From positions 62,001 to 126,000 of the forward strand of contig JAUJOK010000005.1 of assembly GCA_030447685.1 (NCBI GenBank): 64,000 nt of DNA, given 5' to 3'. Within the stretch, counting starts at the first letter, position 1. The number at the start of each line of letters is the position of its first letter. A program made the position numbers and the translations under genes. Origin of the DNA: Armatimonadaceae bacterium. Lineage in GTDB: Bacteria; Armatimonadota; Armatimonadia; Armatimonadales; Armatimonadaceae. The notes below the pieces were generated by a model, which did no database searches, was not told where the DNA came from, and saw only the letters and a program-made list of their open reading frames with translations. Shown one piece after another: positions 44,027 through 59,535 of this stretch.

Positions 44027-45099
44027 CGAATAACCCCCGGCTGGAGCGTGCTCAGGTAGATTTTGCGCTGGAGAGTGATGTCTCCGTCCACATCGCGTAT
44101 CTGCAGGCTTATCTGTGGGTCCTGCCGCTCCCAATCGATGCTTATCAGGCCGAAGTTATCGCCCCAGTTCATCGTGCCGACCCGGTGCCGGTTCGTTTCG
44201 TAGGGCCGCCAGCGCTGGGCGCTGCGGTTCAGCGCGCTGCTGGTCAGATCGTAAAGCGGATAGCCGACACCGCCGTCCATCATGGATAGTTCCGCGAGGT
44301 GCCGGTCGCCGCTGATGAAGAGGACGCCCGCCGCCTTCGTGCCACGGATGAGATTGAAAAGCCGTTCACGCTCGTGGGGAAAGTTCATCCACTTTTCCCA
44401 GCCGTGGTCTTCCGGCACAACCTGAATACTGGAGGCGATGATCCGCACCTCGGCAGGCACGCGCAACTGCGCTTCCAGCCATCTCCATTGCGCGTCGCCC
44501 AGCACGGTCACGGCGGGGTCGGGGTTGGGGACATACGGGCCGAGGGCGCGATTTTCCGGCTCCCTTCTTTTCAAGGGGCCGCGATGGTAGCGGGTATCCA
44601 GAAGAATAATCTGTACTTGCTTGCCCGGCGGGCCGTAAACCCGGGCATCATAGACGCCTTCGCGGCTCCGTCGCGGCGAGTTTTTCGGCTCCCCAAAGAA
44701 ATCCAGAAAAACCTGCTGCGATTCCCGGCGCTTCGGATACTCCGCGCCGCCATCGTTGACACCGTAATCGTGATCGTCCCAGGTCGCCAGAACCGGGCAT
44801 GTTGCCGTCAGCTTCTTGTAGCCGGGCTGCGCGCCGAGTCGCGCGTACTTGTCGCGCATCACCTGCATGTCCTCGGTGTCGCCATAGATATTATCGCCGA
44901 CAAACAGGAACAGGTCCGGCTTATTCCCGACTATCGGCTCCCAGATCGGCTGCGGCTGGTCCTGCCCGGCGCAGGAGCCGAACGCGATCCGCTGGAGCGG
45001 CTTCTTCTGCATCTGCGCGGCATCTGCGCCTGTTCCGCTGGGCGGCAGCAGAGCAGCCAGCCCCGTGAAGAGCAGGACGTTACGACGGCTGATTCTCAT
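44023..45099 (-). CDS. PhoD-like phosphatase, Tat-exported
   Basis: A 358-residue metallophosphatase. '[15 protein letters not shown]' is a Tat signal. Metal-site motifs are '[11 protein letters not shown]', '[18 protein letters not shown]', '[12 protein letters not shown]' and '[13 protein letters not shown]', as in PhoD alkaline phosphatase/phosphodiesterases. It likely frees phosphate from esters in the periplasm. It lies between the DnaA-domain-like protein gene and DUF6807 gene with four-base overlaps on both sides. Confidence 0.9.
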
Positions 45100-45761
45100 G
45101 CCTGCCCGCCTCCTTTTCGCCGCTCGAACAGCATATAAGCTAATATCGTCGCGTCCGAGCCGGTCATCGAGGCCACCCGCTCGATGACGCGGGACAGACC
45201 GCGCTCGGTCTGCTCATTGGTTTTCGCGCCTTCGGGAAGCAGTTCCGCCATCGCCTTCTCGACCATCTCCATCGCCTGACGGAGGAAGCGCGCCTTGCCT
45301 GATGCGAGGGCGCGGTATTCGGAGCCGGCCCACATTCGTGATACCTGGTCGTAAATCTCATCCCAGGAAGAAAAGGTTTCCGACTGCACGAACTTTTTCT
45401 GCGCCGCCTGCTGCCGCTGCGCCGTTGCCGCCGCGTCCTGCGCCTTGACATATTCCCAGTCCGCGCGTGTCGTCCCTTCGATCAGCCGGAATTTCAGATC
45501 CGCACTGTTGGCGACCGTGCGCAGCGCCTGCTCCATCGCGCTCTTATGCTCGCCGGAGTTCAGCGAGGAGGCAAGCTGCCCATCCGCCGTGCCGATACCG
45601 ACGACGAACGTGTTGTTTTCCCACGCCACCGGTACGGTCTTTTCCAGCGCGCGCCATAGCGTCGGGGCGATTACCACCTTTTTGACGCGCTCCACGGTCT
45701 GCGCCCATAACTGCTGCATCGCCTGCGGATCCCCGCCGCCGCTACTGCCTATCGCTGCCAT
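45096..45761 (-). CDS. Protein with a DnaA-domain-I-like N-terminus, function unknown
   Basis: A 221-residue protein. Residues about 15-100 ('[40 protein letters not shown]' and on to 'FRLIEG') look like the N-terminal domain I of DnaA: a helix with 'LW', a short beta element 'TFVVGI', and a closing 'LKFRLIEG' strand. The AAA+ and DNA-binding parts of DnaA are absent. The rest is helical, with a Gln/Ala-rich stretch and a C-terminal helical bundle. It may be an adaptor using the same fold, but this is inference. It starts the minus-strand operon with the PhoD-like and DUF6807 genes. Confidence 0.6.
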
Positions 45762-45833: not shown

Positions 45834-45863
45834 TTGACAAACAAGCGCGGCGTGGTGTATGAT
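45834..45863 (+). promoter_or_regulatory. Promoter of the candidate structured RNA
   Basis: TTGACA (45834-45839), 18-base spacer, TATGAT (45858-45863). It is one of the best sigma-70-like promoters in the window and is not near a coding start. Confidence 0.7.
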
Positions 45864-45869
45864 TCGCCT

Positions 45870-46197
45870 CGTTGCCCCGGCGCTTCCCGCACCGGCAGCG
45901 ATTATCTTGTTGGGAGCCGGTTTTGTTCGATAAAAACGCGACAACCACATATCGGTTCGATAGCGCGCATGCACTGATACGCTGCGGGCTGTGGCTTGCC
46001 GCGACTTCCGGGATGGCCGGAAGGGCCGCAGTTCCCGGCGCGCGGCGTAATGGCCGCGTATCACAAATCGGCGCACCAGCAGCCGGGGCAGGCAGCGGAT
46101 CGGGAGGGTTCACCTCCACATAATCCCGCAGCCTGTAAAAGCGTTTTCAACGCCCCCCGCGCCGATCCGACCATAGGACGAAGCGGGGGGCGTTTTG
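45870..46197 (+). ncRNA. Candidate structured noncoding RNA or leader, about 330 nt
   Basis: The segment lies between a strong promoter and a strong terminator and has no convincing open frame. By eye it folds into several stems: GTTG/CAGC with a CCGG/CCGG inner helix at the 5' end; TGATACGC (45975-45982) with GCGTATCA (46056-46063) closing a domain that contains CTTCCGG/CCGGAAG; and CAGGC (46089-46093) with GCCTG (46131-46135), enclosing GGAT/ATCC and GGAGG/CCTCC. It does not match tmRNA, RNase P RNA, SRP RNA or a riboswitch that I know. It may be a free RNA, or a leader controlling the acetyltransferase 29 bases beyond its terminator. Confidence 0.5.
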
Positions 46198-46202
46198 TTT
46201 TA
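46150..46202 (+). terminator. Rho-independent terminator of the candidate RNA
   Basis: ACGCCCCCCGC (46150-46160) pairs perfectly with GCGGGGGGCGT (46183-46193), followed by TTTTGTTTTATT. It stands just before the GNAT gene, so it could also be an attenuator for that gene. Confidence 0.85.
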
Positions 46203-46225: not shown

Positions 46226-46618
46226 GTGATAACTTACCGGACAGACATCGTTCCCGGCATGGACGCCATAACCGCCCTGTATCGCGCCGCGCCCCTGAAT
46301 CGGCCCGTGGATGATACGGAGCGTATGCGGCGCATGTATGCCGGGGCGAATCTGGTGCTGACTGCCTGGCACGGCGAGCGACTTGTGGGGATTATGCGCG
46401 GCTGGACGGACGACGCGCGCGACGGCTATATCTGCGATCTTGCGATTGACCCGGAGTACCAGAAACAGGGCGTCGGGCGGGAGCTTCTGGAGCGGACGCG
46501 GGCGACGAACCCGCAGGTGCAGTTCATCCTGCGCGCATCGGCCATAGCGGCGGATTATTACGGCTATGTCGGCTGGCAGAAGATAGAAAACGGCTGGTAC
46601 TGGCCGCGCGAAGAATAA
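46226..46618 (+). CDS. GNAT family N-acetyltransferase
   Basis: A 130-residue single-domain acetyltransferase with 'VLTAWHGERLVGIMRGWTDD', then the acetyl-CoA loop 'ICDLAIDPEYQKQGVGRELLERT' and a C-terminal 'IAADYYGYVGWQKIENGW'. The start is GTG at 46226 with AGGAG eight bases upstream. The acceptor is unknown. It lies just after a strong terminator, which may regulate it. Confidence 0.92.
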   Translation: MITYRTDIVPGMDAITALYRAAPLNRPVDDTERMRRMYAGANLVLTAWHGERLVGIMRGWTDDARDGYICDLAIDPEYQKQGVGRELLERTRATNPQVQFILRASAIAADYYGYVGWQKIENGWYWPREE

Positions 46619-46631
46619 GCATGCCAGGCTC

Positions 46632-46770
46632 ATGTACCGAGGGACAGAACGTCCCTCGCTCGTGAGCCTCCGGCTAACCGTCCTGCCGGACGCGGCAGAT
46701 TGATTTTCCGTCCGCGAGGACGGCTGACGGCCACGCCCGCAAGCGAGGGACGTTCTGTCCCTCGGTACAT
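46632..46770. repeat. 139-bp inverted-repeat element (family C)
   Basis: Perfect 29-base inverted repeats (46632-46660 and 46742-46770, ATGTACCGAGGGACAGAACG and on) flank an 81-base centre that itself has a CCGTCC/GGACGG palindrome. Each arm also holds an internal hairpin, GAGGGAC/GTCCCTC. There is no coding sequence. It resembles a miniature transposable element. Nothing similar was noticed elsewhere in the window. Confidence 0.75.
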
Positions 46771-46882
46771 TTTCGCGGCCACGCGCCGCAGCAAGCAGTG
46801 CCGCACACCCAAGCGGCGTCCGGGCAGTAGCCGTCGGGACGTTCCGCGTATCGGGGCGGCGCTATAGCGAATATCCTGCAAG

Positions 46883-47100
46883 GGATGTCGCTCCTGGGCG
46901 GACAGCCCAATGGTACATCAGGTTCGAATCCTGAACATGCGGCGTGCGCCGACAGTGCGCGAACGGGAAACCGGACGAGCCGCCGGGCGCGGCTTTGCGG
47001 GCGCGGGGATACCCGCCGGGACAGGCGAATGCCGCAAGGCATCGCTTCCCCGGCGTCAACCACGCCCCCGCCGAATCGGGTGTTTGTCGGCGCGCGTCGC
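46883..47100 (+). ncRNA. tRNA-like, tetraloop-rich leader upstream of the slipin-RtcB genes
   Basis: A full T-arm is present: TCAGG (46918-46922), loop TTCGAAT, CCTGA (46930-46934). It is flanked by GGATGT (46883-46888) and ACATGC (46935-46940), which pair as an acceptor-like stem with one mismatch. Between them is a TGGGC/GCCCA hairpin, but no anticodon arm, so this is not a normal tRNA. Downstream come CGG-GAAA-CCG (about 46963-46972), GCGGG-GATA-CCCGC (about 47001-47014) and a TGCC-GCAA-GGCA hairpin (47030-47041). The whole could be a structured RNA or 5' leader of the operon. A chance tRNA-gene relic is the alternative. Confidence 0.4.
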
Positions 47101-59169: not shown

Positions 59170-59193
59170 GGCCAAATAGGGAGGGATAGAAGA

Positions 59194-59531
59194 ATGAACA
59201 AAGGACAGGTAAATCTTCAGGACACGTTCCTGAACCAGGTACGCAAAGAGAACATCGCGGTGACGATCTATCTGATCGGCGGCGTTCAGTTGCGGGGTCA
59301 GGTGCGCGGCTTCGACACGTTCACGATCCTGCTGGACAGCCAGGGGCGGCCCACACAGTTGGTGTACAAAAGCGCCGTCACCAGCATCGTGCCCATGCGC
59401 CCGGTGAATATGCGCGAGGCGCAGGCCGAAGCGCGCGCTGCTGCGGGCCTGGAACCGCTCGGCAACGGCGCGTCAGAAACCGGCGAGCCTATTGCGCAGC
59501 CGCCCGCCGCCGCTCCGGCGGGAGCGAGCGT

Positions 59532-59535
<4 letters not shown>
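59194..59535 (+). CDS. hfq: RNA chaperone Hfq
   Basis: A 113-residue Hfq. The Sm fold is clear: 'NLQDTFLNQVRKENIAVTIYLIGGVQLRGQVRGFDTFTILL' and 'LVYKSAVTSIVPMRPV'. The second motif has YKSA in place of the common YKHA, losing the histidine that binds uridine in E. coli. After residue 70 there is an Ala/Pro-rich tail of about 40 residues. The stop overlaps the dapF start by four bases (ATGA), so translation is coupled. It is probably co-transcribed with miaA. Confidence 0.94.

Follow-up and report, generated by a model that had tools for sequence, protein, structure and literature searches.

A short promoter-terminator unit in an Armatimonadota genome that may encode a small protein rather than a structured RNA

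In the window, as we call the whole 64-kb stretch of Armatimonadota DNA analysed here (G000:C53:62001-126000), an intergenic segment at positions 45834-46202 carries transcription signals at both ends and a sequence that appears to fold elaborately. An earlier note on this DNA took the segment for a structured RNA of about 330 nt. We asked whether the locus specifies such an RNA or is better explained as the mRNA of a small protein, relying largely on comparison with one relative, G003 (AVDCRST_MAG63, record CADCTO010000077.1). The signals that delimit the unit, and the gene that diverges from it, are as follows.

45096-45761, minus strand: gene of a 221-aa protein, divergent, present phylum-wide and without a Pfam family; the synteny anchor
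45834-45863, plus strand: sigma-70-type promoter TTGACA-18-TATGAT, 11/12 consensus bases
45870-45900, plus strand: 5' hairpin CGTTGCC...GGCAGCG, which has a G003 counterpart; a competitor of the 8-bp closing stem described below
46149-46194, plus strand: intrinsic terminator, a 12-bp stem that encloses an inner hairpin and leads into an interrupted T run; its conservation in G003 is strong

Promoter sites with at least nine matches are expected by chance about 0.6 times per 2.4 kb scanned; the site found here has a homologue, TTGACA-18-TAAAAT, in the same position in G003. The terminator stem amounts to -33 kcal/mol and was overlooked by the automated terminator scan because its loop is long. 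The transcription unit, a short one that carries start and stop signals of its own, is real, and the conservation of its ends in G003 supports a discrete terminated transcript.

All comparisons were made across genera, with 291 genomes of the phylum Armatimonadota searched and 61 relatives used in BLAST and anchor searches. BLAST of the window transcript against these 61 gave no credible homologue; a 52-bp match in G015 sits within an unrelated protein gene and was dismissed as chance. The divergent 221-aa protein, which has matches in 56/61 genomes, was then chosen as the synteny anchor. The protein also shows a faint similarity, far under cut-offs, to DNA polymerase III gamma/tau models. We read the upstream side of its gene in 12 relatives, eight of them from the same family, and only G003 carried the same unit; no other of the 291 genomes was found to have it. 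The divergent neighbour of the gene in G002 (L005 / L073) resembles, as judged by eye, a polynucleotide (RNA) ligase. Used as a BLAST query, the G003 transcript reached no third genome apart from a 39-bp match in G058.

In G003 the unit diverges from the same 221-aa gene as in the window, and the two regions have in common TrpS, a PhoD-like gene, the 221-aa gene, the unit and a Band 7 gene; a tRNA-Ile lies between unit and Band 7 gene in G003, at the place where the window has an acetyltransferase gene. The promoter, the 5' hairpin and the terminator of the two transcripts are clearly homologous. Aligned against shuffled controls, the promoter and 5' end scored z = 4.9 and the terminator z = 8.5, while the part spanning the open reading frame (ORF) discussed below scored z = 2.8.

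The predicted fold of the window transcript is more stable than that of shuffled sequences, with z = -4.96 when the terminator is included and -2.98 when it is excluded; the core (45870-46093) gave -2.60, and the terminator-free values lay between -2.6 and -3.5. The lowest z of 464 window slices belonged to 45926-46200, a slice with the terminator inside it, and 3.2% of the slices reached -2.98 or lower. Above-chance folding is real, but the terminator accounts for much of it. The closing stem has the following arms.

45874-45881, plus strand: 5' arm of the 8-bp closing stem (GCCCCGGC); absent from G003
46082-46089, plus strand: 3' arm of the same stem (GCCGGGGC), by modelled pairing

This perfect stem has a modelled pair probability of 0.63-1.0 that varies with the assumed 5' end; for a transcript begun at 45866, where the hairpin at 45870-45900 is its rival, the value is 0.63-0.79.

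Fold conservation was compared between two sequences, those of the window and G003, which are too few for covariation analysis proper. In this one homologue no conserved secondary structure was found. Without its terminator, the G003 transcript showed no excess folding over shuffles (z = -0.61), and 38 of the 80 comparable pairs predicted for the window were standard in G003; a control with partners slid by up to 6 columns gave 24-34 of about 80, and we take the excess to be the yield of shared sequence alone. A covariance model built on the window fold and run over the 291 genomes had the window itself as its sole match and did not match the G003 transcript. Comparison of these two sequences, the only one available, lends no support to a new structured RNA; the transcript of the relative has a coding-like small ORF instead.

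Searches for known RNAs agreed with the earlier statement that the segment resembles no common housekeeping RNA or riboswitch. Rfam gave no match over the window transcript at gathering score, and ARAGORN detected no tRNA or tmRNA in the region; a riboswitch, T-box, 6S RNA, tmRNA and RNase P RNA were each considered and set aside, as none gave a match. At a relaxed threshold only weak matches appeared (E > 1), among them CC1840 and rnk_pseudo, which we rejected as resting mainly on the terminator hairpin.

The interior of the unit contains a possible gene.

45912-45916, plus strand: Shine-Dalgarno-like GGGAG in the sequence, 6 nt upstream of the TTG start
45923-46123, plus strand: candidate 66-aa ORF, TTG start, TAA stop at 46121-46123; its N-terminal part resembles a 64-aa ORF of G003

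The first description of the unit holds for promoter, strong terminator and closing stem, but its assertion of no credible reading frame was too strong, as the 66 codons behind GGGAG are open and probably have a counterpart in G003, where the 64-aa ORF occupies the space from 5' hairpin to terminator. With a codon table trained on seven window genes, the G003 ORF had a log-odds of +0.19 (GC3 0.89), the other five frames being negative, whereas the window ORF had -0.24 (GC3 0.60, GC2 0.69), a non-coding-like composition. Local alignment of the two peptides over the N-terminal 23 residues (ATTTYRFDSAHALIRCGLWLAAT / ATTAYRPESRRALLRRAMRLGAS) scored 47, which 1/5000 shuffles reached; in a control over all frame pairs, two others scored 48 and 10/300 shuffled controls reached 47. 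Identity at the three codon positions was 13, 17 and 11 of 23, highest at the second. The stop codons of both ORFs share alignment columns, and the C-terminal halves of the peptides gave no convincing alignment. On these alignments the peptide match is only suggestive. Pfam and NCBIfam held no family for either peptide, and peptide and two-sequence profile searches of the 291 genomes returned weak matches (E 0.002-0.05) and no convincing third homologue; several of these matches have internal stops or lie inside other genes, and those inspected were unconvincing.

We tentatively favour, with confidence that stops just short of even, the explanation that the locus is a short single-gene unit most likely encoding a small protein, about 66 residues long and fast-evolving, with a hydrophobic segment in its first half. 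The mRNA of a small-protein gene, or of what remains of one, is more likely than a new structured regulatory RNA because the elaborate fold is not common to the G003 unit. Promoter, 5' hairpin, small ORF and intrinsic terminator would follow one another in that order, with the hairpin and terminator serving to stabilise and end the mRNA and the hydrophobic segment possibly directing the peptide to membrane or export. We infer that the window ORF is translated and that its product is membrane-directed. The window ORF itself speaks against a small protein in that its codon bias is poor and it starts at TTG, not ATG. The unit resembles the genes of small bacterial proteins (shorter than about 70 aa and often unannotated) in its short ORF with Shine-Dalgarno sequence, own promoter, 5' hairpin, intrinsic terminator and poor conservation, but differs from them in its weak codon bias, single known relative and lack of a family. 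If the protein is real, its small gene is unannotated and evolves fast, in a phylum that has been little studied.

The small protein is the leading but unproven explanation, and its close rival is decay of the gene in the window genome, by which the G003 ORF would be functional and the window unit still transcribed and terminated while its ORF loses constraint. A coding signature present in G003 and absent in the window, poor C-terminal similarity and conserved ends all suit such a decaying copy; the window ORF, however, is still open across 66 codons with a Shine-Dalgarno sequence, and neither promoter nor terminator has decayed. On balance we think decay improbable, a little more so than either form of the RNA proposal. 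The first of these, a lineage-specific non-coding RNA of about 330 nt, would be an sRNA and possibly Hfq-dependent, with the G003 ORF coincidental or the G003 transcript different in role. It draws on the above-chance folding, the weak codon bias of the window ORF and the unit's own promoter and terminator, as well as on an Hfq gene that the earlier note correctly placed in the window.

59170-59532, plus strand: Hfq homologue (phmmer 8e-20 with E. coli Hfq)

The absence of the fold from the only ortholog, a covariance model without a relative among the 291 genomes and the restriction of conserved parts to the ends weigh against such an RNA, which we regard as unlikely, if the least unlikely of the alternatives. 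Trans-acting sRNAs with intrinsic terminators, the Hfq class, are likewise intergenic promoter-terminator units with a stable fold, but the window unit is long at 330 nt, its U tail is interrupted, its fold is not conserved and it has no Rfam match. Marginally less probable still is a new regulatory RNA of about 330 nt specific to this Armatimonadota genus, possibly of dual function with a small peptide, whose fold would postdate the split from G003. The locus illustrates that a GC-rich intergenic transcript can resemble an elaborately structured RNA in a single genome while the sole relative points to a small protein; the main practical gain is a negative one, namely that the window fold should not be taken for a new RNA family.

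The earlier suggestion of an attenuator concerned the gene behind the terminator.

46226-46618, plus strand: GNAT acetyltransferase gene, 31 nt past the terminator stem; missing from this position in G003

The GNAT gene may depend on read-through, since it starts so close behind the stem and the intervening sequence showed no promoter. The unit could accordingly be read as a 5' leader whose attenuating terminator controls the acetyltransferase, with read-through supplying the mRNA. Like transcription attenuators and riboswitch leaders, it is a structured leader that ends in a terminator immediately ahead of a gene; unlike them, it has a downstream gene that lies outside the conserved unit, and no aptamer, riboswitch or leader family matches it. 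Leader and gene are not linked in the relative, as G003 keeps the terminated unit without GNAT there and has no clear ortholog elsewhere (best E 8.7e-4). We consider a dedicated attenuator unlikely because conservation of the terminated unit does not extend to GNAT and the GNAT segment looks rearranged or acquired, as the palindromic repeat after it suggests; of all the readings we rate this the least plausible, and by our estimate quite improbable.

That palindromic element, of about 140 bp (46633-46773), has arms GAGGGACAGAACGTCCCTCG / GAGGGACGTTCTGTCCCTCG with 25 genome-wide matches at up to two mismatches, mostly paired about 100-140 bp apart, against 0 for the reversed control. It is a dispersed MITE-like repeat with many copies in the genome, and it gives rise to spurious miRNA matches in Rfam.

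A better conserved-RNA candidate than the unit at 45834-46202 lies nearby.

About 46795-47013, plus strand: conserved RNA candidate immediately upstream of the Band 7 gene, with DNA-level conservation in G003 and G038

By BLAST this sequence is 72% identical to its G003 counterpart and, over two blocks, 75-84% identical to that of the distant G038, and it contains a T-arm-like hairpin (CAGGTTCGAATCCTG); the segment 46785-47060 folds with z = -3.1. A Band 7-like gene follows it in the window genome, G003 and G038 (3/3), and in the latter two its counterpart lies behind tRNA-Ile(TAT). RNAalifold on the homologues gave 58 pairs, six of which had changed on both sides in one sequence or more, and a slightly unfavourable covariation term; a model of the RNA matched these three genomes only among the 291. 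The next gene after Band 7 in the window is RtcB. In diverse bacteria the genes for Y RNAs and Ro60 lie next to that for RtcB (PMC7790460), which makes a Y RNA that includes a tRNA-like domain a natural guess. The candidate is possibly a Y-RNA-like RNA or a leader of the Band 7 gene. No Rfam model matched it, those for Y RNAs included, and a pattern scan of viral contigs gave 20 matches, none fitting the model well. A search for TROVE (Ro60) found none in G003 or G038; partial TROVE matches occur in the window genome (G000, C73:103840-104136), on a contig other than that of RtcB.
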